Of a DNA stretch of 64,000 nucleotides, positions 1,522 through 63,555 are shown piece by piece. Made by a program: the position numbers and the translations under genes. The stretch is taken from the NCBI GenBank assembly GCA_026874595.1, contig CM049309.1:95874723-95938722 (forward strand), read 5' to 3'. The DNA is from Sipunculus nudus. Its lineage: Eukaryota > Annelida > Sipuncula > Golfingiida > Sipunculidae. Positions within the stretch are counted from its first letter, which is position 1. The number at the start of each line of letters is the position of its first letter. The notes beneath the pieces are model-generated. The model saw nothing but the letters and a program-made list of their open reading frames with translations. It had not been told where the DNA came from and made no database searches.

Positions 1522-1971
1522 GTCAACGATTTTCTATCGGGAAAAGCCCCCTTGACGCTTGCGATGCGCCTGAGTGATCACATGGTGTTTATGCAACTTC
1601 AACTGTCAACATCTCCAGCTGGCTGCAAGAGAGTATCAACAGGACCGACACGCCAAGCTTCTTCCAGCAGTCGGAACACCCGTGCAGCAAGCAAAGCCAG
1701 TCCGGCCAACACAGGCCATACCAGAGTTCCAGTGGTCCTTCCGCATCCCTTCGGGCATTCTTCTTCCGTCTCCGGACAAAAGCCTTCCTTTACTCCACGT
1801 TTTAACAGTGCTTCCCAGCCCGCCAATCATGGAGGCAGGCCGCACAAAGGGCCACATGTGCCCGTGTTGGACCGTCGCACTCTAGCAGAGGCCAGTAGGA
1901 ATTTATCGCAAAAACTCAAGGAGCTTACCCAGTATACCCCGACGCCATCAACAGAAAGTACCCCTGAAGTT
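1522..1971 (+). CDS. MIDN: Midnolin homologue, internal exon A (post-ubiquitin-like block and linker)
   Basis: This exon encodes 150 codons in phase 0 at both ends. Codons 1-28 read [20 protein letters not shown] followed by MVFMQLQL, which matches the block directly after the ubiquitin-like domain of midnolin proteins (vertebrate VNDFLSG, PLTLA, GDHMMFVQLQLA). In midnolin, two separated conserved regions fold together into the substrate-catching domain that holds beta-strand degrons of short-lived nuclear proteins for ubiquitin-independent proteasomal degradation; this block should be the first of them. Codons from about 30 to 118 form a Ser/Pro/Arg/His-rich linker, and about 119-141 ([20 protein letters not shown]) look helical. 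The acceptor is 'ttttttgcag' ending at 1521 and the donor is the consensus GTAAGT at 1972-1977. Exons for the ubiquitin-like domain must lie upstream. Opposite-strand frames here are shadows. Confidence 0.9.
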
Positions 1972-9985: not shown

Positions 9986-11305
9986 GATACTATGTTTTCA
10001 GCTGCCCGCCGCCGCCGCCGCCGCCGCGTAGGTGTCCGGAGAACTCCTCCGTAACCGCTGGGTGGAATTTTACGAAACCCGGGATTATGTTCAGGTCACG
10101 TGAACTGCTGCGCCCCGATTTTGTTTTGACCTCTGACCTTTCCTCTGTGCTCTGCGTCCATTTGTGCGTCTGTTTCCACACATAAACCCACATATCTCGG
10201 GAACCGTTTGATCGATCAGGAAAATTTTTTTGCACAAATGTAGCCCTTGGAGAGCTTTATAACTTACACAAAAAATGGTGGCGCCACCTGCAACCATGTT
10301 TGCACAGTGTCCATCTGTTCGTCTGCCTTGGGTTAAAATCACTCACATCTCTGCAGTGACTTGACTAATTCACCTGAAATTTGGCATGCGTATACATCCT
10401 GGATAGCTTTTCTGATTTTGTGACAGGTGGCGCCACCTACATTCACGTTTACCCTGCAGACATCCAAGCTCATATCTCGGGAACCGTTTGACCGATCAGG
10501 AAAATTTTTTGCACAAATGTAGCCCTTGGAGAGCTTTATAACATACATCAAAAATGGTGGCGCCACCTGCAACCATGTTTGCACAGTGTCCATCTGTTTG
10601 TCTGCCTTGGGTTAAAATCACTCATATCTCTGCAGTGACTTGACTAATTCACCTGAAATTCGGCATGCGTATACATCCTGGATAGCTTTTCTGATTTTAT
10701 GACAGGTGGCGCCACCTACATTCACGTTTACGCTGCTGACATCCAAGCTCATATCTTGGGAACTGTTTGACCGATTGGGCCAAAATTTTGCATGTGTATA
10801 GATCTCACATAGCTCTTTATCATACGCAAAACTGGTGGGGCCACCTGCAGCCATTTTTGCACAGCTCCTGTCTGTCTGTCTGCCATGGGATAAAATCACT
10901 CATATCTCGGCAGTGGTTTGACATATCTGGCTAAAATTTTGCAGGTTTATACATCCCTGACAGCTATCTTGATTTTATGACAGGTGGCGCCACCTGCATT
11001 CTAGTTTATGCAGCAGACATCCAAGCTCATATCTTGGGAACCGTTTGACCGATTAGGCCAAAGTTTTGCATGTGTATAGTTCTCACATAGCTCTTTATCA
11101 TATGCAAAACTGGTGGCGTCACCTGCAACCATTTTTGCTCAGCGTCCATCTGATTGTCTGCCACGGGCTAAAATCACTCATATACATGTAGTGGTTTGAC
11201 TTATCTGCCTTAAATTTTGCATATGTATACAACTTGGATGGCTTTCTGGATTTTGTGGTAGGGGGGGCAACCTTCACACACAATTTGGCTGCAGACATCC
11301 ATGCT
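9986..11305 (+). mobile_element. GGTGGCGCCACC-bearing element with a 279-bp module in about four tandem copies
   Basis: The left end 'atactatgttttca' plus a (GCC)n tract at about 10004-10027 resembles the start of element C at 35612. It is followed by four tandem modules that begin with 'catatctcgggaaccgtttg' or a variant at 10191, 10471, 10750 and 11028, so the period is 278-280 bp. Most modules carry the 12-bp palindrome GGTGGCGCCACC twice (first at 10277-10288), with one copy mutated (GGTGGGGCCACC). The fourth module runs straight into the 61-bp array. Short minus-strand frames here are artefacts. Confidence 0.75.
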
Positions 11306-11307
11306 AA

Positions 11308-14300
11308 TATGTTTACTGTTATGTTTACTGTAGAACAAGCCTCCTGTGTGGACAGAGTGTGACAGCAGTAAATGGTGTGTTATGTTTACTGTAGAACAAG
11401 CCTCCTGTGTTGACAGCATGTGACAGCAGTAAATGGTGTGGTATGTTAACTGTAGAGCAAGACTTCTGTATGGACAGAGTGTGACAGCAGTAAATGGTGT
11501 GTTATGTTTACTGTAGAACAAGCCTCCTGTGTGGACAGCATGTGACAGCAGTAAATGGTGTGTTATGTTTACTGTAGAACAAGCCTCCTGTGTGGACAGT
11601 GTGCGACAGCAGTAAATGGTGTGTTATGTTTTCTGTAGAACAAGCCTCCTGTGTGGACAGAGTGTGACAGCAGTAAATGGTGTGTTATGTTTTCTGTAGT
11701 ACAAGCCTCCTGTGTGGACAGCATGTGACAGCAGTAAATGGTGTGTTATGTTTACTGTAGAGGAAGACTTCTGTATGGACAGAGTGTGACAGCAGTAAAT
11801 GGTGTGTTATGTTTACTGTAGAACAAGCCTCCTGTGTGGACAGAGTGTGACAGCAGTAAATGGTGTGTTATGTTTCCTGTAGTACAAGCCTCCTGTGTGG
11901 ACAGAGTGTGACAGCAGTAAATGGTGTGTTATGTTTTCTGTAGAACAAGCCTCCTGTGTGGACAGAGTGTGACAGCAGTAAATGGTGTGTTATGTTTACT
12001 GTAGAACAAGTCTCCTGTGTGGACAGAGTGCGACAGCAGTAAATGGTGTGTTATGTTTTCTGTAGAACAAGTCTCCTGTGTGGACAGAGTGCGACAGCAG
12101 TAAATGGTGTGTTATGTTTTCTGTAGAGCAAGACTCCTGTGTGGACAGAGTGTGACAGCAGTAAATTGTGTGTTATGTTTACTGTAGAGGAAGACTTCTG
12201 TATGGACAGAGTGTGACAGCAGTAAATGGTGTGTTATGTTTACTGTAGAACAAGCCTCCTGTGTGGACAGAGTGTGACAGCAGTAAATGGTGTGTTATGT
12301 TTCCTGTAGTACAAGCCTCCTGTGTGGACAGAGTGTGACAGCAGTAAATGGTGTGTTATGTTTTCTGTAGAACAAGCCTCCTGTGTGGACAGAGTGTGAC
12401 AGCAGTAAATGGTGTGTTATGTTTACTGTAGAACAAGTCTCCTGTGTGGACAGAGTGCGACAGCAGTAAATGGTGTGTTATGTTTTCTGTAGAACAAGTC
12501 TCCTGTGTGGACAGAGTGCGACAGCAGTAAATGGTGTGTTATGTTTTCTGTAGAGCAAGACTTCTGTGTGGACAGAGTGTGACAGCAGTAAATTGTGTGT
12601 TATGTTTTCTGTAGAACAAGTCTCCTGTGTGGACAGAGTGTGACAGCAGTAAATGGTGTGTTATGTATACTGTAGAGCAAGACTCCTGTGTGGACAGAGT
12701 GCGACAGCAGTAAATGGTGTGTTATGTTTTCTGTAGAACAAGCCTCCTGTGTGGACAGCATGTGACAGCAGTAAATGGTGTGTTATGTATACTGTAGAGC
12801 AAGAATCCTGTGTGGACAGAGTGTCACAGCAGTAAATGGTGTGTTATGTTTACTGTAGAACAAGCCTCCTGTGTGGACAGAGTGCGACAGCAGTAAATGG
12901 TGTGTTATGTTTACTGTAGAACAAGCCTCCTGTGTGGACAGAGTGCGACAGCAGTAAATGGTGTGTTATGTTTACTGTAGAACAAGCGTCCTGTGTGGAC
13001 AGAGTGTGACAGCAGTAAATGGTGTGTTATGTTTACTGTAGAACAAGCCTCCTGTGTGGACAGAGTGTGACAGCAGTAAATGGTGTGTTATGTTTACTGT
13101 AGAGCAAGACTCCTGTGTGGACAGAGTGCGACAGCAGTAAATGGTGTGTTATGTTTACTGTAGAGCAAGACTTCTGTATGGACAGAGTGTGACAGCAGTA
13201 AATGGTGTGATATGTTAACTGTAGTACAAGCTTCCTGTGTGGAAAGCAAGTGACAGCAGTAAATGGTGTGTTATGTTTTCTGTAGAACAAGCCTCCTGTG
13301 TGGACAGCATGTGACAGCAGTAAATGGTGTGTTATGTTTACTGTAGAGCAAGACTCCTTTGTGGACAGCATGTGACAGCAGTAAATGGTGTGTTATGTTT
13401 TCTGTAGTACAAGCTTCCTGTGTGGACAGCAAGTGACAGCAGTAAATGGTGTGTTATGTTTTCTGTAGTACAAGCTTCCTGTGTGGACAGCAAGTGACAG
13501 CAGTAAATGGTGTGTTATGTTTTCTGTAGAACAAGCCTCCTGTGTGGACAGCATGTGACAGCAGTAAATGGTGTGTTATGTTTACTGTAGAGCAAGACTC
13601 CTGTGTGGACAGAGTGTGACAGCAGTAAATGGTGTGTTATGTTTTCTGTAGAACAAGAATCCTGTGTGGACAGCATGTGACAGCAGTAAATGTTGTGTTA
13701 TGTTTTCTGTAGAACAAGCCTCCTGTGTGGACAGCATGTGACAGCAGTAAATGGTTTGTTATGTTTACTGTAGAGCAAGCCTCCTGTGTGGACAGAGTGT
13801 GACAGCAGTAAATGGTATGTTATGTTTTCTGTAGAACAAGCTTCCTGTGTGGACAGCATGTGACAGCAGTAAATGGTGTGTTATGTTTACTGTAGAGCAA
13901 GCCTCCTGTGTGGACAGAGTGTGACAGCGGTAAATGGTGTGTTATGTTTACTGTAGAGCAAGCCTCCTGTGTGGACAGCATGTGACAGCAGTAAATGGTG
14001 TGTTATGTTTTCTGTAGAAATAGCCTCCTGTGTGGACAGCATGTGACAGCAGTAAATGGTGTGTTATGTTTACTGTAGAGCAAGACTCCTGTGTGGACAG
14101 AGTGTGACAGCAGTAAACGGTATGTTATGTTTTCTGTAGAACAAGCTTCCTGTGTGGACAGCAAGTGACAGCAGTAAATGGTGTGCTATGTTTTCTGTAG
14201 AACAAGCATCCTGTATGGACAGCAAGTGACAGCAGTAAATGGTGTGTTATGTTTACTGTAGAGCAAGACTCCTGTGTGGACAGAGTGTGACAGCAGTAAA

Positions 14301-16857
14301 TGGTATGTTATGTTTTCTGTAGAACAAGCTTCCTGTGTGGACAGCATGTGACAGCAGTAAATGGTGTGTTATGTTTACTGTAGAGCAAGCCTCCTGTGTG
14401 GACAGAGTGTGACAGCAGTAAATGGTGTGTTATGTTTTCTGTAGAACAAGAATCCTGTGTGGACAGAGTGTGACAGCAGTAAATGGTGTGTTATGTTTTC
14501 TGTAGAACAAGCCTCCTGTGTGGACAGCATGTGACAGCAGTAAATGGTGTGTTATGTTTACTGTAGAGCAAGACTCCTGTGCGGACAGAGTGCGACAGCA
14601 GTAAATGGTGTGTTTTACTGTAGAACAAGCTTCCTGTGTGGACAGCAAGTGACAGCAGTAAATGGTGTGCTATGTTTTCTGTAGAACAAGCATCCTGTGT
14701 GGACAGAGTGTGACAGCAGTAAATGGTATGTTATGTTTTCTGTAGAACAAGCTTCCTGTGTGGACAGCAAGTGACAGCAGTAAATGGTGTGCTATGTTTT
14801 CTGTAGAACAAGCATCCTGTGTGGACAGCAAGTGACAGCAGTAAATGGTGTGTTATGTTTACTGTAGAGCAAGACTTCTGTATGGACAGAGTGTGACAGC
14901 AGTAAATGGTGTGTTATGTTTACTGTAGAACAAGCCTTCTGTGTGGACAGCATGTTACAGTAGTTAATGGTGTATTATGTTTTCTGTAGAACTACCGTCC
15001 TGTGTGGACAGTGTATGACATCAGTAAATGGTGTGTTATGTTTACTGTAGAACAAGCCTCCTGTGTGGACAGAGTGTGACAACAGTAAATGGTGTGTTAT
15101 GTTTACTGTAGTACAAGCCTCCTGTGTGGACAGAGTGCGACAGCAGTAAATGGTGTGTTATGTTTACTGTAGAACAAGCCTCCTGTGTGGACAGAGTGCG
15201 ACAGCAGTAAATGGTGTGTTATGTTTTCTGTAGAACAAGCCTCCTGTGTGGACAGAGTGTGACAGCAGTAAATGGTGTGTTATGTTTACTGTAGAACAAG
15301 CCTCCTGTGTGGACAGCATGTGACAGTAGTAAATGGTGTGTTATGTTTACTGTAGAGCAAGACTCCTGTGTGTACAGAGTGTGACAGTAGTAAATGGTGT
15401 GTTATGTTTACTGAAGAGCAAGACTCCTGTGTGGACAGAGTGTGACAGCAGTAAATGGTGTGTTATGTTTACTGTAGAACAATCCTCCTGTGTGGACAGA
15501 GTGTGACAGCAGTAAATGGTGTGTTTTGTTTACTGCAGAGCAAGACTTCTGTATGGACAAAGTGTGACAGCAGTAAATGGTGTTTTGTTTACTGTAGAAC
15601 AAGCGTTCTGTGTGGACAGCATGTTACAGTAGTTAATGGTGTGTTATGTTTTCTGTAGTACAAGCCTCCTGTGTGGACAGAGTGTGACAGCAGTAAATGG
15701 TGTGTTTTGTTTATTGTAGAGCAAGACTTCTGTATGGACAGAGTGTGACAGCAGTAAATGGTGTGTTTTGTTTACTGTAGAACAAGCGTTCTGTGTGGAC
15801 AGCATGTTACAGTAGTTAATGGTGTGTTATGTTTTCTGTAGAACAAGCCTCCTGTGTGGACAGCATGTGACAGCAGTAAATGGTGTGTTTTGTTTACTGT
15901 AGAGCAAGACTTCTGTATGGACAGAGTGTGACAGCAGTAAATGGTGTGTTTTGTTTACTGTAGAACAAGCGTTCTGTGTGGACAGCATGTTACAGTAGTT
16001 AATGGTGTGTTATGTTTTCTGTAGAACAAGCCTCCTGTGTGGACAGAATGTGACAGCAGTAAATGGTGTGTTATGTTTACTGTAGAACAAGCCTCCTGTG
16101 TGGACAGTGTATGACATCAGTAAATGGTGTGTTATGTATACTGTAGAGCATGACTCCTGTGTGGACAGAGTGTGACAGCAGTAAATGGTGTGTTATGTTT
16201 ACTGAAGAGCAAGACTCCTGTGTGGACAGAGTGTGACAGCAGTAAATGGTGTGTTATGTTTACTGTAGAGCAAGACTTCTGTATGGACAGAGTGTGACAG
16301 CAGTAAATGGTGTGTTATGTTTACTGTAGAACAAGCGTTCTGTGTGGAAAGCATGTTACAGTAGTTAATGGTGTGTTATGTTTTCTGTAGAACTACCGTC
16401 CTGTGTGGACAGTGTATGACATCGGTAAATGGTGTGTTATGTATACTGTAGAGCATGACTCCTGTGTGGACAGTGTGACAGCAGTAAATGGTGTGTTATG
16501 TTTACTGTAGAGCAAGACTTCTGTATGGACAGAGTGTGACAGCAGTAAATGGTGTGTTATGTTTACTGTAGAACAAGCGTTCTGTGTGGACAGCATGTTA
16601 CAGTAGTTAATGGTGTGTTATGTTTTCTGTAGAACTACCGTCCTGTGTGGACAGTGTATGACATCAGTAAATGGTGTGTTATGTATACTGTAGAGCATGA
16701 CTCCTGTGTGGACAGAGTGTGACAGCAGTAAATGGTGTGTTATGTTTACTGTAGAACAAGCATCCTGTGTGGACAGCATGTGACAGTAGTAAATGCTGTG
16801 TTATGTTTACTGTAGAACAAACGTCCGGTTTGGACAGCGTGTGACAGCAGTAAATGC
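11308..16857 (+). repeat. 61-bp satellite array built from the exon B acceptor junction, about 90 copies
   Basis: The unit reads 'gttatgtttactgtag' (a 3' splice-acceptor-like sequence), then 'aacaagcctcctgtgtggac' and 'agagtgtgacagcagtaaat' and 'ggtgt'. Unit spacing measured from 'tagaacaag' at 11331 and 11392 is 61 bp. Variants include T/A before CTGTAG, GAGCAAGACT for GAACAAGCCT, and GCATGTGAC for GAGTGTGAC. The last copy overlaps exon B and is the most divergent in its exonic part. Since 61 is not a multiple of three, minus-strand frames such as 13033-13371 are not genes. The unit also contains a donor-like 'agcagtaaat'. Confidence 0.97.
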
Positions 16858-16972
16858 AGCAGCAACAGCAGCAGTGCCAGCAGTACAGGTGGCAGCAGTG
16901 GAGCCTATAACGGGCCAGTCATCGAGAGCATGCAGAATCATGGTGGAGGGGTTTACTCAGGAACATTCTCAG
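16816..16972 (+). CDS. MIDN: Midnolin homologue, internal exon B
   Basis: This exon encodes 52 codons plus one base. The chosen start follows 'tgtttactgtag' at 16804-16815, the only acceptor that keeps phase 0 from exon A without a stop. The translation is NKRPVWTACDSSKC, then a Ser/Asn-rich run, then GPVIESMQNHGGGVYSGTFS, which matches vertebrate midnolin (VIESFVNH, GVFSGTFSG). In midnolin this begins the second half of the substrate-catching domain. The donor GTATGT is at 16973. The first 42 coding bases are the last unit of the 61-bp array, while the final 36 bases begin the 51-bp repeat downstream. An alternative acceptor ('aaatgcag' ending at 16859) would need an unseen extra exon to fix the phase. 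Confidence 0.85.
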
Positions 16973-17142
16973 GTATGTTGTCATTGAGATCATGGTGTAG
17001 GGTTTACTCAGGAACATTCTAAGGTATGTGGTCATTGAGATCATGGTGTAGGGTTTACTCAGGAACATTCTAAGGCATGTGGTCATTGAGATCATGGTGG
17101 AGGGGTTTACTCAGGTACATTCTCAGGTATGAGGTCATTGAG
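16937..17142 (+). repeat. 51-52 bp tandem repeat of the exon B donor junction, 4 copies
   Basis: The unit contains 'atcatggtggaggggtttac', 'tcaggaacattctcag' and the donor 'gtatgttgtcattgag'. Copies start at 16937 (the exonic copy), 16989, 17040 and 17091. Donor-like GT sites remain at 16973, 17024 and 17127; in the third copy the site is GC ('aaggcatgt'). Reading on past the true donor meets TAA in the next copy. The last copy is closer to the exonic one (GGAGGGG, TCTCAG) than the two middle copies are. Confidence 0.93.
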
Positions 17143-34767: not shown

Positions 34768-35324
34768 GTGGTAGTTACCATTGCTTGTCACAGTTTTTGT
34801 GTGCTAAGATGTGGTAGTTACCTGTGCTTGTCACGGTTTTTGTGTGCTAAGATGTGGTAGTTACCGTTGCTTGTCACAGTTTTTCTGTGCTAAGATGTGG
34901 TAGTTACCGTTGCTTGTCAGTTTTTGTGTGCTTAGATGTGGTAGTTACCTGTGCTTGTCACGGTTTTTGTGTGCTAAGATGTGGTAGTTACCGTTGCTTA
35001 TCACAGTTTTTGTGTGCTAAGATGTGGTAGTTACCGTTGCTTGTCACGGTTTTTGTGTGCTAAGATGTGGTAGTTACTGTTGCTTGTCACAGTTTTTGTG
35101 TGCTAAGATGTGGTAGTTACTGTTGCTTGTCACAGTTTTTGTGTGCTAAGATGTGGTAGTTACCGTTGCTTGTCACAGTTTTTGTGTGCTAAGATGTGGT
35201 AGTTACTGTTGCTTGTCACAGTTTTTGTGTGCTAAGATGTGGTAGTTACCGTTGCTTGTCACAGTTTTTGTGTGCTAAGATGTGGTACTTACTGTTGCTT
35301 GTCACGGTTTTTGTGTGCTAAGAT
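34768..35324. repeat. Second, unrelated 43-bp minisatellite ending just before exon C, about 13 copies
   Basis: The unit contains 'gtggtagttaccgttgcttg' and 'tcacagtttttgtgtgctaa' plus 'gat'. Spacing of 'gtggtag' is 43 bp (34811, 34854). It stops about 25 bases before the acceptor of exon C, so its T-rich unit ('agtttttgtgtg') lies where the branch point and polypyrimidine region of that intron should be. The sequence is unrelated to the 43-bp array at 19912. Confidence 0.95.
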
Positions 35325-35348: not shown

Positions 35349-35516
35349 GTACACTGAACCCAGCCTTGCAGGATAAAGATGGCCGACTAAAACGAAACAC
35401 GAGCACGATCATTCACATTCTAAATGATCTCCTGGGAGCTACCCCTCAGTACAGCCATCAGCTGGGTCATCAGCGAGAACAGAGAGATAGGATTCACCAC
35501 CGATTCCATGCCAACC
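35349..35516 (+). CDS. MIDN: Midnolin homologue, internal exon C
   Basis: The exon has 168 bases; the first two complete the Gly codon split by the intron (G|GT), and it ends one base into a codon. It encodes TLNPALQDKDGRLKRNTSTI, then IHILNDLLGATPQYSHQL, then a basic tail GHQREQRDRIHHRFHAN. This matches the vertebrate midnolin TLHP...QD..GR.RRD..TI..ILNDLLSAT block, part of the second substrate-catching segment. The acceptor is 'tttcttgtacag' and the donor is the consensus GTAAGT at 35517. Frames that continue to 35770 run through the intron into element C and are not real. The downstream proteasome-binding helix of midnolin is not in this exon. Confidence 0.92.
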
Positions 35517-48680: not shown

Positions 48681-49637
48681 AATTGTATCCCCAGACAAAA
48701 GTCGGGGGATACTGTTTTCATGCTGGTCCCGCTGCCGCCTCCGCATATAAATCTTGTTGGAGCAATAACTCGAAAAATATTTCACAGATCTTTACCAAAC
48801 TTGGTATATGTATAGATATGGGTGAGAGGACGACGCCTATTTAAGATGAGGTCATGACCTTTACTAGTGTCCTTGACCTTGAATAGGTCCAATTTTGGAG
48901 AAAATCACACAAATTCTTAAATATCTAAAGAAATCTTGCATGGATTGATCCCAAAATCAGGTTGATCGAAGATCATGGATAGGGTTGTCATGTACCTGTT
49001 ATTCTTTGTTTTCATGCCATATAATACCCTCATCACTGCCACTTAACAGTACTGCAAGCATTATGAGTCAGAAACTAATGGACAGATTTCTTTTATATTA
49101 TGCATATATATAGATATAGGTTATGGGATGACCTTTCCTATGACAGTGGCCTTGAACTGGAATATTCCCACAAAATCATATATATTTAAATAAGAAATGC
49201 ATGGATTGGTCCAAAAATCAAACTGACTGAAGATCTTGGATAGCTTTGTCTTCTGCAGAAGACAGGTGGCACCACCTTCTGTCCTTTTCTTGTTTTCGCG
49301 CTTTTTAACACCCCATCATTGCTACTTGACAGTACTGAGCATTATGGGTCTAAAGCTAAAGGACAGATTAGGCTGAAATTGTGCATGTCCATTGATCTTG
49401 GATACCTCCATCTTGTATTCAAGAGTGGTGGCACTATCTGCAATCATTATTGTGTGGCGTCCATCCATATGTTTACTTTTGGTAAAAATTGCTCATATAT
49501 CCGGAGTGGTTCAAGGTATTGGTATTGGTCTGAAATTATTTGCTGCTGAAGATGGGGGGACTATTCTTAAAAGGGAGGGGGGGGTTAATTGTCTGGGGAT
49601 ACTGTGGCACCTGCGGTGCCAAGAAATATCGAGTTTA
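48681..49637 (+). mobile_element. Element C copy inserted in the 27/24-bp array
   Basis: It starts 'aattgtatccccagacaaaa' and ends 'attgtctggggatactgtgg' with the terminal hairpin GGCACC-TGC-GGTGCC at 49606-49620. It is homologous along its length to 35612-36180 plus the tail at 36645-36774, without the family B segment. Units of the 27/24-bp array lie on both sides. There is no protein-coding frame of note. Confidence 0.75.
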
Positions 49638-57275: not shown

Positions 57276-60200
57276 AAGAAAGCTAGTCTCCCTGTCTGAA
57301 AAAAACATGACCAAACTGAGGTATAGGAAAACCTGTCTCCCTGTCTGATAAAAAACATGACCAAACTGAGGTATAAGAAAACCTGTCTCCCTGTCTGATA
57401 AAAACATGACCAAACTGAGGTATAAGAAAACCTGTCTCCCTGTCTGATAAAAACATGACCAAACTGAGGTATAAGAAAACCTGTCTCCCTGTCTGATAAA
57501 AAACATGACCAAACTGAGGTATAGGAAAACCTGTCTCCCTGTCTGATAAAAAACATGACCAAACTGAGGTATAAGAAAACCTGTCTCCCTGTCTGATAAA
57601 AACATGACCAAACTGAGGTATAAGAAAACCTGTCTCCCTGTCTGATAAAAACATGACCAAACTGAGGTATAGGAAAACCTGTCTCCCTGTCTGATAAAAA
57701 CATGACCAAACTGAGGTATAAGAAAACCTGTCTCCCTGTCTGATAAAAACATGACCAAACTGAGGTATAAGAAAACCTGTCTCCCTGTCTGATAAAAAAC
57801 ATGACCAAACTGAGGTATAGGAAAACCTGTCTCCCTGTCTGATAAAAAACATGACCAAACTGAGGTATAAGAAAACCTGTCTCCCTGTCTGATAAAAACA
57901 TGACCAAACTGAGGTATAAGAAAACCTGTCTCCCTGTCTGATAAAAACATGACCAAACTGAGGTATAGGAAAACCTGTCTCCCTGTCTGAAAAAAACATG
58001 ACCAAACTGAGGTATAGGAAAACCTGTCTCCCTGTCTGATTAAAACATGACCAAACTGAGGTATAGGAAAACCTGTCTCCCTGTCTGATAAAAACATGAC
58101 CAAACTGAGGTATAGGAAAACCTGTCTCCCTGTCTGATAAAAACATGACCAAACTGAGGTATAGGAAAACCTGTCTCCCTGTCTGATAAAAACATGACCA
58201 AATTGAGGTATAAGAAAACCTGTCTCCCTGTCTGATAAAAACATGACCAAACTGAGGTATAAGACAACCTGTCTCCCTGTCTGATAAAAACATGACCAAA
58301 CTGAGGTATAAGAAAACCTGTCTCCCTGTCTGATAAAAACATGACCAAATTGAGGTATAAGAAAACCTGTCTCCCTGTCTGAAAAAAACATGACCAAACT
58401 GAGGTATAGGAAAACCTGTCTCCCTGTCTGAAAAAAACATGACCAAACTGAGGTATAGGAAAACCTGTCTCCCTGTCTGATTAAAACATGACCAAACTGA
58501 GGTATAGGAAAACCTGTCTCCCTGTCTGATAAAAAACATGACCAAACTGAGGTATAAGAAAACCTGTCTCCCTGTCTGATAAAAACATGACCAAACTGAG
58601 GTATAAGAAAACCTGTCTCCCTGTCTGATAAAAACATGACCAAACTGAGGTATAGGAAAACCTGTCTCCCTGTCTGAAAAAAACATGACCAAACTGAGGT
58701 ATAGGAAAACCTGTCTCCCTGTCTGATTAAAACATGACCAAACTGAGGTATAGGAAAACCTGTCTCCCTGTCTGATAAAAACATGACCAAACTGAGGTAT
58801 AGGAAAACCTGTCTCCCTGTCTGATAAAAACATGACCAAACTGAGGTATAGGAAAACCTGTCTCCCTGTCTGATAAAAACATGACCAAATTGAGGTATAA
58901 GAAAACCTGTCTCCCTGTCTGATAAAAACATGACCAAACTGAGGTATAAGACAACCTGTCTCCCTGTCTGATAAAAACATGACCAAACTGAGGTATAAGA
59001 AAACCTGTCTCCCTGTCTGATAAAAACATGACCAAATTGAGGTATAAGAAAACCTGTCTCCCTGTCTGATAAAAACATGACCAAACTGAGGTATAAGAAA
59101 ACCTGTCTCCCTGTCTGATAAAAACATGACCAAACTGAGGTATAGGAAAACCTGTCTCCCTGTCTGAAAAAAACATGACCAAACTGAGGTATAGGAAAAC
59201 CTGTCTCCCTGTCTGATTAAAACATGACCAAACTGAGGTATAGGAAAACCTGTCTCCCTGTCTGATAAAAACATGACCAAACTGAGGTATAGGAAAACCT
59301 GTCTCCCTGTCTGATAAAAACATGACCAAACTGAGGTATAAGAAAACCTGTCTCCCTGTCTGATAAAAACATGACCAAACTGAGGTATAGGAAAACCTGT
59401 CTCCCTGTCTGATAAAAACATGACCAAACTGAGGTATAGGAAAACCTGTCTCCCTGTCTGATAAAAAACATGACCAAACTGAGGTATAAGAAAACCTGTC
59501 TCCCTGTCTGATAAAAACATGACCAAACTGAGGTATAAGAAAACCTGTCTCCCTGTCTGATAAAAACATGACCAAACTGAGGTATAGGAAAACCTGTCTC
59601 CCTGTCTGATAAAAACATGACCAAATTGAGGTATAAGAAAACCTGTCTCCCTGTCTGATAAAAACATGACCAAACTGAGGTATAAGACAACCTGTCTCCC
59701 TGTCTGATAAAAACATGACCAAACTGAGGTATAAGAAAACCTGTCTCCCTGTCTGATAAAAACATGACCAAACTGAGGTATAAGAAAACCTGTCTCCCTG
59801 TCTGATAAAAAACATGACCAAACTGAGGTATAGGAAAACCTGTCTCCCTGTCTGATAAAAAACATGACCAAACTGAGGTATAAGAAAACCTGTCTCCCTG
59901 TCTGATAAAAACATGACCAAACTGAGGTATAAGAAAACCTGTCTCCCTGTCTGATAAAAACATGACCAAACTGAGGTATAGGAAAACCTGTCTCCCTGTC
60001 TGATAAAAACATGACCAAATTGAGGTATAGGAAAACCTGTCTCCCTGTCTGAAAAAAAACATGACCAAACTGAGGTATAGGAAAACCTGTCTCCCTGTCT
60101 GATAAAAACATGACCAAACTGAGGTATAAGAAAACCTGTCTCCCTGTCTGATAAAAACATGACCAAACTGAGGTATAAGAAAACCTGTCTCCCTGTCTGA

Positions 60201-62500
60201 TAAAAACATGACCAAACTGAGGTATAAGAAAACCTGTCTCCCTGTCTGATAAAAACATGACCAAACTGAGGTATAGGAAAACCTGTCTCCCTGTCTGATA
60301 AAAACATGACCAAACTGAGGTATAAGAAAACCTGTCTCCCTGTCTGATAAAAACATGACCAAACTGAGGTATAGGAAAACCTGTCTCCCTGTCTGATAAA
60401 AACATGACCAAACTGAGGTATAAGAAAACCTGTCTCCCTGTCTGAAAAAAACATGACCAAACTGAGGTATAGGAAAACCTGTCTCCCTGTCTGATAAAAA
60501 ACATGACCAAACTGAGGTATAAGAAAACCTGTCTCCCTGTCTGATAATAACATGACCAAACTGAGGTATAAGAAAACCTGTCTCCCTGTCTGATAAAAAC
60601 ATGACCAAACTGAGGTATAGGAAAACCTGTCTCCCTGTCTGATAAAAACATGACCAAATTGAGGTATAGGAAAACCTGTCTCCCTGTCTGATAAAAACAT
60701 GACCAAACTGAGGTATAGGAAAACCTGTCTCCCTGTCTGATAAAAACATGACCAAACTGAGGTATAAGAAAACCTGTCTCCCTGTCTGATAAAAACATGA
60801 CCAAACTGAGGTATAAGAAAACCTGTCTCCCTGTCTGATAAAAACATGACCAAACTGAGGTATAGGAAAACCTGTCTCCCTGTCTGATTAAAAACATGAC
60901 CAAACTGAGGTATAGGAAAACCTGTCTCCCTGTCTGATAAAAACATGACCAAACTGAGGTATAAGAAAACCTGTCTCCCTGTCTGATAAAAAACATGACC
61001 AAACTGAGGTATAAGAAAACCTGTCTCCCTGTCTGATAAAAACATGACCAAACTGAGGTATAAGAAAACCTGTCTCCCTGTCTGATAAAAAACATGACCA
61101 AACTGAGGTATAGGAAAACCTGTCTCCCTGTCTGATAAAAACATGACCAAACTGAGGTATAGGAAAACCTGTCTCCCTGTCTGATAAAAAACATGACCAA
61201 ACTGAGGTATAAGAAAACCTGTCTCCCTCTCTGATAATAACATGACCAAACTGAGGTATAGGAAAACCAGTCTCCCTGTATGATAAAAACATGACCAAAT
61301 TGAGGTATAAGAAAACCTGTCTCCCTGTCTGATAAAAAACATGACCAAACTGAGGTATAAGAAAACCTGTCTCCCTGTCTGATAAAAAACATGACCAAAT
61401 TGAGGTATAAGAAAACCTGTCTCCCTGTCTGATAAAAAACATGACCAAACTGAGGTATAGGAAAACCTGTATCCCTGTCTGATAAAAACATGACCAAATT
61501 GAGGTATAAGAAAACCTGTCTCCCTGTCTGATAAAAACATGACCAAATTGAGGTATAAGAAAACCTGTCTCCCTGTCTGATAAAAAACATGACCAAACTG
61601 AGGTATAGGAAAACCTGTCTCCCTGTCTGATAAAAACATGACCAAATTGAGGTATAAGAAAACCTGTCTCCCTGTCTGATAAAAACATGACCAAACTGAG
61701 GTATAGGAAAACCTGTCTCCCTGTCTGATAAAAACATGATCAAACTGAGGTATAAGAAAACCTGTCTCCCTGTCTGATAAAAAACATGACCAAACTGAGG
61801 TATAAGAAAACCTGTCTCCCTGTCTGATAAAAAACATGACCAAACTGAGGTATAAGAAAACCTGTCTCCCTCTCTGATAATAACATGACCGAACTGAGGT
61901 ATAGGAAAACCAGTCTCCCTGTATGATAAAAACATGACCAAACTGAGGTATAAGAAAACCTGTCTCCCTGTCTGATAAAAACATGACCAAACTGAGGTAT
62001 AAGAAAACCTGTCTCCCTGTCTGATAAAAACATGACCAAATTGAGGTATAAGAAAACCTGTCTCCCTGTCTGATAAAAACATGACCAAACTGAGGTATAG
62101 GAAAACCTGTGGTTCCTGTCTGATAAAAACATGACCAAATTGAGGTATAAGAAAACCTGTCTCCCTCTCTGATAAAAACATGACCAAATTGAGGTATAAG
62201 AAAACCTGTCTCCCTGTCTGATAAAAAACATGACCAAATTGAGGTATAAGAAAACCTGTCTCCCTGTCTGATAAAAAACATGACCAAACTGAGGTATAAG
62301 AAAACCTGTCTCCCTGTCTGATAAAAAACATGACCAAACTGAGGTAAAAGAAAACCTGTCTCCCTGTCTGATAATAACATGACCGAACTGAGGTATAGGA
62401 AAACCAGTCTCCCGGTATGATAAAAACATGACCAAATTGAGGTATAAGAAAACCTGTCTCCCTGTCTGATAAAAAACATGACCAAACTGAGCTAAAGAAA
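57276..62500. repeat. 49-bp satellite array, about 106 copies
   Basis: The unit contains 'aaaacctgtctccctgtctg', 'ataaaaacatgaccaaactg' and 'aggtataag'. 50-bp copies carry one extra A in the A run. The unit has no stop in any of the three minus-strand frames, so frames drift through all three and stay open for up to 1746 codons (57283-62523). Protein-level repeats (GDRFSYTSVWSCF, GRQVFLYLSLVMF, ETGFLIPQFGHVF) are the same DNA read in three frames. Large parts recur as higher-order blocks; variants such as AAGACAACC mark repeated sets. The right edge (61200 onward) is more diverged. Confidence 0.97.
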
Positions 62501-63555
62501 AACCATGACCATATATGCCTCACAAGATTATATTTAATACAGAATCAGTTGTACTTATGACAAACAGAAAAAGAAATCAAGAACAAACAGAAAAAGAAAT
62601 CAAGAAAACAATGGTTGATTTATTAGAGAGTAATCAGTAAATTATTGAAAGGACCAACTATTTCCCAAACTAAGTAATGATTTGTTGACATATTTCATAA
62701 TCACAGTTAATTACACAATAATTACAATAGGCTTATCAGTGTATGTGATACTGGCAAGTTATAAAAAGTCCATCAGCTTCCCTTGTTTCTATTATAATAC
62801 AGCAAACTTAATAACGGTGGTGGAGCTTTTATCTGCATTGTCCTTGAAGCTGACAGGTATCCTGCAGTACCCCAGATACTGGACAGACACTGATGTTTAT
62901 TAAAGACTAGCATTCACTCTCAAGACCATTCAGATGAGGCCACTTCTGGAATGAATGACAAATGTTAGTTTTGCTGCAGGCAGACATTCATACATACCAG
63001 GAGGAGTGGCCTGTTAGGCGAGACAAAAGATGCTGTACAAAACATGGAGGATTAACGTGTAGGAGTTGTTGTGTTGTAGGATGTGTGTGGGAAGGCCCAC
63101 CTGTCTCTCATAATCAGGATACACCTAAATCTACACCAAAATATTTACATCAGTTTCCCTGGCTGGTCAGTCAGCATGATGACATACGTTTTTATACACC
63201 ACTGTATTCCCACCTGGCTGCACTGGAGACCTGGGATGAATGTTTTTACAGGTAGACCCAATTCAGGACTAGGAAGATGTTTACACAGCAACTAGTAGTG
63301 ACTTGTTTGTGGTCTTACTACAAGGTTCTAAGATAAAAGTCAAATTTTGTTAAGAATACAGTTTCAGATCATTGAGTATAAATCATATGGCCAAGATATT
63401 TGTATATTAGTTGTGTTATATTTTCTTCTGTCAGGTTTCATTAGTTGTTGTAGTGTTGGTCTCCTCTGAAAAGGAAAAAAAAAATCAATTTAGAAGATTT
63501 TATATCAGGAAGAATATTAAATTCTGGAGATGAACAAGATTTAGTCCAAGCCTTT
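62501..63555 (+). other. Spacer with one unexplained open frame
   Basis: A 22-bp direct repeat 'acaaacagaaaaagaaatca' lies at about 62560-62605. An open frame at 62962-63255 could be an exon from 62980 (after 'ttttgctgcag') and encodes a Cys-rich then aromatic-rich segment containing LHQFPWLVSQHDDIRFYTPL; I recognise no family. The rest is AT-rich. Confidence 0.4.

Follow-up and report, generated by a model that had tools for sequence, protein, structure and literature searches.

A minisatellite at the acceptor boundary of midnolin exon B that was probably copied from the boundary itself, with a second array at the donor end of the same exon

Introduction

Certain tandem repeats in lancelet genes, known as "mirages," have units that run across the boundary between an intron and an exon. 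They were reportedly first described by Canestro et al. in 2002, and a Drosophila paper (PMC2891723) is said to deal with introns caused by sliding or tandem duplication. Here, we analyze a 64-kb window of genomic DNA (the whole stretch of 64,000 nucleotides at positions 95,874,723 to 95,938,722 of contig CM049309.1, in assembly GCA_026874595.1, deposited as Sipunculus nudus) in which two such repeats flank a single exon. One is a 61-bp array that ends inside exon B of the gene for midnolin, a protein that governs the turnover of short-lived nuclear proteins. The other is a 51/52-bp array that begins with the end of the same exon.

Lancelet mirages are reported for Adh3 and the globin genes Gb6 and Gb9 (PMC3087553), with further cases in PGBD5 and troponin C (PMC3902484). 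The Gb6 mirage unites the 3′ end of an intron with the 5′ part of the next exon and has six and three units in two haplotypes; that of Gb9 lies at the 3′ boundary of an exon; and reverse transcription polymerase chain reaction (RT-PCR) suggests that splicing is regular (PMC3087553). In human CBS, a 31-bp variable number tandem repeat (VNTR) is placed over the boundary of exon 13 and intron 13 (c.1444_1467+7) in 16 to 21 copies (PMC2630376), and more copies are reported together with lower enzyme activity (PMC5188458). Human genes in segmental duplications are likewise described with variable tandem repeats at exon-intron boundaries (PMC2812944), and a model of intron gain by tandem duplication has been put forward (PMC3087553). 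A word-based search of open-licence papers, for the most part by their listed entries, found no boundary-spanning minisatellite outside chordates.

Lancelet mirages and the midnolin arrays are alike in that tandem units span an intron-exon boundary and carry splice signals in many of the units. As among the lancelet mirages collectively, both 5′ and 3′ boundaries are affected, and, as in Gb6, the interior of the array is homogenized and the edge unit distinct. The midnolin arrays differ from their lancelet counterparts in occupying both ends of one exon, in a different gene, and in scale: There are 90 extra acceptor copies, against the six and three units of the two Gb6 haplotypes. They are known from the sequence of one assembly, whereas lancelet mirages have also been followed by RT-PCR on splicing. 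The CBS VNTR resembles the donor-side array of midnolin, its unit being an exon end joined to the start of a donor, but it is human, polymorphic, restricted to the donor side, and linked in copy number to enzyme activity. The tandem repeats of segmental duplications and of intron gain share with midnolin a position at boundaries, where they move or create splice sites. Unlike in intron gain, no new intron is seen at midnolin, where the copies lengthen existing introns. In the anatomy that we read from the sequence, the midnolin arrays are a mirage. The phenomenon is already known; what this locus adds is the copy number, the two-sidedness, and a host that is probably not a lancelet, given that its assembly of 1.43 Gb is far larger than lancelet genomes of about 0.5 Gb.

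Results

The acceptor-side array

Exons A, B, and C of the window (Table 1) join into one open frame, which we identify as midnolin because phmmer matched it to PDB chains of that protein (presumably human; best E 1.5e-24). No Pfam family matched the joined exons at E values up to 1. The 5′ edge of exon B was placed by phase and frame, with G 16815 as the final base of its acceptor. An earlier interpretation made from the letters alone (the sequence-only reading) had held that the last acceptor of the array gives the right phase for exon B, and the open A-B-C frame bears this out.

Further parts of the gene were sought by tblastn in flanking DNA of the same assembly, using a human midnolin sequence as the query. 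Counted in window coordinates, three segments lie 5′ of the window between about −9560 and −8017, of which exons 2 and 3 are weak matches (E 0.80 and 0.085, respectively); a C-terminal exon was placed at about 73000. Ubiquitin-like and "Catch" segments (the first of the latter being the segment in exon A) follow one another in exon order over about 82 kb. The midnolin gene thus looks intact over that distance.

The 61-bp array begins in intron-like sequence and finishes inside exon B. Its unit consists of about 20 nt of intron 3′ end followed by 41 nt of exon 5′ end. The estimate of about 90 units in the sequence-only reading was accurate: We find 91 in-register AG acceptors, from 11333 to 16815, at a spacing of exactly 61 in 87 of 90 cases. 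Its statement that every unit contains tttactgtag followed by aacaag was too strong. The AG is kept in all 91 units, TGTAG in 88, and AACAAG in 47, and the full 16-mer is exact in only 24. Conservation of the AG needs no special cause, because 25 of the 61 columns are invariant anyway across the 86 full-length units. The mean divergence of these units from the consensus is 3.7 of 61 positions, and the array has no codon-position bias of note (0.068, 0.085, and 0.059). An exact repeat of 395 bp inside the array, at a lag of 427, points to the recent duplication of a seven-unit block and is suggestive of length polymorphism or somatic instability.

At the authentic boundary, all 18 intronic bases compared and 36 of 41 exonic bases agree with the array consensus. 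The last unit does run into the exon, as the sequence-only reading had it, although for 41 bases (16816 to 16856) rather than 42, since base 42 differs; its count of six differing codons, three of them synonymous, holds when that base is included. Within the 41 bases, synonymous changes make up three of the five differences (a random-mutation simulation gives a P of about 0.02, or 0.03 with position 42 counted; both values are post hoc and weak). The exon bases at positions 6, 12, and 15 are seen in no other unit, and a C at position 42 is found only at the real boundary and in the neighboring unit. The authentic boundary is an edge unit, diverged from the homogenized interior of the array.

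Across the 1.43-Gb assembly (153 contigs, some as long as 98 Mb), all 82 matches to the 61-bp unit fell inside the array; repeat counts in this search are lower bounds, as very common words were skipped. We therefore rejected a dispersed satellite family as a candidate, every match being local to the array.

Table 1. Features of the midnolin locus, in coordinates of the 64-kb window.
Feature	Position	Strand	Basis and description
Midnolin exon A	1522..1971	+	PDB chain match and tblastn; first "Catch" segment; ends in phase 0, donor GTAAGT
61-bp array	11310..16856	+	Real boundary preceded by 90 decoy acceptor units; Tandem Repeats Finder (11317 to 16856), 91.0 copies, 90% matches
Branch-point-like GTGAC (putative)	16780..16784	+	Its A, at 16783, lies 32 nt upstream of the last acceptor
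Midnolin exon B	16816..16972	+	157 nt, phase 0 in and phase 1 out; frame, PDB chains, and tblastn
Part of exon B in common with the array unit	16816..16856	+	NKRPVWTACDSSK and two further bases; matches the consensus at 36 of 41
51/52-bp donor-side array	16937..17142	+	Genuine end of exon B followed by three tandem copies that span exon end, donor, and 5′ intron
Midnolin exon C	35349..35516	+	Starts GTLNPALQDKDGR; entered in phase 1; boundary copies not found

The donor-side array

The strongest evidence comes from the other end of exon B and was missed by the sequence-only reading. There, the real exon end and its donor (GTATGT) take up 16937 to 16988, and three copies then run to the end of the array, with decoy donors after 17023 (GTATGT), 17074 (GCATGT), and 17126 (GTATGA). 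Three of the four units carry GT and one carries GC. The exonic part of the copies comes from NHGGGVYSGTFSG, a stretch that lines up with NHAPGVFSGTFSG in the midnolin chains of the PDB. Because the copied stretch is one that aligns with these chains, the coding sequence on this side is, on the strength of that alignment, certainly older than the repeat, and the direction of copying was from exon to repeat.

Splice signals within the arrays

Splice sites were scored with a rough weight matrix. The sequence-only reading had described a donor-like site 34 bases past each acceptor, and GTAAAT does stand at exactly that distance in 83 of 91 units. The site is weak, however, GCA/GTAAAT scoring 3.1 against 9.9 for the real donor, so that 34-nt pseudo-exons are unlikely. 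The branch-point-like GTGAC falls within exonic sequence copied into the next-to-last unit, and 67 of 91 units keep it at the same place. A CTAAT motif located 26 nt upstream of the first acceptor is a possible original branch point.

As previously predicted from the letters, entry at an upstream acceptor meets a stop, which follows after 1 to 39 codons for each of the 90 decoys. Use of any of the three decoy donors would lengthen the exon and bring in a stop after 68 codons; stops also result if exon B is skipped.

Control exons and regional arrays

Among seven midnolin exons examined, boundary copies occur only at exon B. None were found at exons A, C, E2, E3, and D at the thresholds used. 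Exon E1 gave 130 hits; the seven listed all lie 22 to 40 bases past the exon end, in an AT-type microsatellite. Twenty myosin exons were also examined with a test that can detect copies no farther than about 600 bases from the exon, and none had exonic boundary copies. This sample was drawn from 75 matches, mostly the top-scoring ones, with some skipped to spread it over genes. Beside one of the myosin exons (L052) there was a self-hit, but inspection by eye placed it past the donor, within the intron, and it was left out of the count.

Tandem arrays are frequent around midnolin. Nineteen of them, with units of 17 to 278 bp, cover 52% of the window. The corresponding cover is 43% in the surrounding 264 kb and 2.2% in 1.5-kb stretches centered on myosin exons, a figure obtained with a slightly looser score cut-off and from stretches that hold little deep intron. 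The right edge of the window is about 1.6 Mb from the end of the 97.5-Mb contig. Array cover in five 1-kb samples taken about 1.6 Mb from chromosome ends was 0, 0, 0.48, 1, and 1 (mean about 50%), and in five mid-chromosome samples 0, 0, 0.71, 0, and 0 (mean 14%). This small sample suggests that chromosome ends are array-rich.

Other features of the window and the assembly

Several further repeats adjoin the features of Table 1. A 278-bp unit repeated four times (10191 to 11310) abuts the 61-bp array and has diverged relatives at 49362 to 49511. Eight bases past the end of exon A, a 20-bp unit begins and is repeated 2.3 times (1979 to 2024). A 43-bp array of 13 units (34768 to 35324) stops 24 bases before the exon C acceptor; blastn found no exon C sequence in it, and the hits obtained with exon C were the array's own tail in the query flank. 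Very long stop-free frames (e.g., 1753 aa) cross a 49-bp tandem array at 57283 to 62544; they look like by-products of the repeat and not like genes. Rfam and ARAGORN scans of the window returned zero matches.

Outside the window, one region (G000:C2:44849337-44852248) has four separate matches, lying close together, to a single stretch of the myosin head model (about 109 to 153); they are perhaps mutually exclusive exons. The assembly also includes bacterial sequence: A bacterial-type oxidase gene is present on a 112-kb contig (C123), of which 20 kb were read, at a GC content of 53%. Nine oxidase frames of 577 to 578 aa and near-equal score are spread over eight contigs (C60-C62, C66, C72, C74, C75, and C89), perhaps representing several related cobiont strains.

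Discussion

Origin of the arrays

We propose that a segment reaching from about −20 to +41 at the boundary of the intron and exon B was tandemly duplicated, and that unequal exchange or slippage would then have produced the 90 extra acceptor copies. The donor boundary of the same exon would have been duplicated separately, giving the three extra copies there. Duplication of the boundary fits the layout, since the array begins intronic and finishes exonic, as copying of a junction would give. The claim of the sequence-only reading that the satellite grew from the intron-exon boundary is well supported by this layout, by the frame, by the restriction of the repeat to one locus, and by the independent donor-side array of conserved coding sequence, all of them features of the assembled DNA; for the acceptor side, it falls short of proof. 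Overall, we put at roughly 80% the probability that the 61-bp array is a minisatellite derived from the acceptor boundary of midnolin exon B, that is, a mirage of the lancelet type that affects both ends of the exon and whose decoys splicing ignores.

Three observations weigh against this interpretation. Within exon B, the PDB midnolin chains begin to match only at residue 161 or 182 of the query (258 aa), so that residues 151 to 160, within the 14-codon segment NKRPVWTACDSSKC, are unmatched. Boundary copies were found in one of seven midnolin exons and in none of 20 myosin exons, so that, in this small sample, boundary copying is no general habit of the genome. Lastly, on the rough matrix, 34 of the 90 decoy acceptors score at least as high as the real one and 37 are identical to it from −18 to −1; site strength alone therefore cannot pick the right acceptor.

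The first of these observations bears on a history in which the repeat came first: An unrelated intronic satellite would have reached exon B, its last AG would have been adopted as the acceptor, and 14 codons would have been added to the protein. We consider such exonization unlikely. It would explain why the first ten of the 14 codons lack a match in PDB midnolin, the remainder lying in a low-complexity, Ser-rich alignment, but the first codons of exon B run on into a Ser-rich coding stretch. The region does hold many arrays unrelated to exons (19 arrays over 52% of the window), yet the donor side of this very exon shows copying from exon to repeat. The post hoc synonymous bias (P about 0.02) also speaks for an older exon sequence. 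Moreover, on the rough matrix, the other AGs between 16837 and 16928 score at best 1.7, against 6.1 for the acceptor at the array end, and the only one among them that keeps the frame scores −6.9.

Splicing in the presence of decoys

The simplest account of how splicing could cope is exon definition, under which the last acceptor would be matched to the first strong donor, 157 nt further on, and the decoys would be ignored. The branch point used would be the site in the last decoy unit, and any mis-spliced transcripts would be removed by nonsense-mediated decay. Most likely, the arrays arose as a by-product of tandem duplication and are tolerated because splicing would join up the acceptor and the donor that lie closest on the two sides of the exon, with no dedicated switch and no need for a regulatory role.

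The sequence-only reading took the stops to suggest either strict discrimination or a built-in switch for nonsense-mediated decay. The sequence itself would also allow the arrays to act as a dial, which is compatible with a mirage origin: The decoys would compete with the real site and send a share of midnolin transcripts, dependent on copy number, into nonsense-mediated decay. This is distinctly improbable in our view. All 90 decoy acceptors and all three decoy donors lead to an in-frame stop, as a dial would require, but a repeat that shifts the frame yields stops by chance, and they are no sign of design. Competition might be expected from the 37 of 90 decoys that match the real site from −18 to −1, and, in human CBS, a higher copy number of the boundary VNTR is reported with lower activity (PMC5188458); lancelet mirages, on the other hand, are reported to leave regular splicing undisturbed (PMC3087553, PMC3902484). 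Slightly more doubtful again is the idea that unstable decoy numbers set the productive fraction of transcripts, whereby array length would make midnolin levels differ between individuals or cell lineages.

That mis-assembly inflated the array or its copy number, as the exact internal repeat of 395 bp could indicate, is highly improbable, as units differing at 3.7 of 61 positions on average are too varied for simple duplication errors and the array sits within a 97.5-Mb contig.

Significance

As mirage minisatellites go, the midnolin case is unusually large, and it presents the cell with many false splice sites that have to be ignored. With it, the range of boundary-spanning minisatellites comes to include the two ends of a single exon, in an animal that is probably not a lancelet. 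Arrays of this type have been proposed as a source of new introns (PMC3087553), and the human CBS array shows a link with expression level (PMC5188458). For the question of how the spliceosome selects its acceptor, the locus offers a natural test: There are 91 acceptors to choose from, and 37 of the 90 decoys have the same last 18 intronic bases as the real site.

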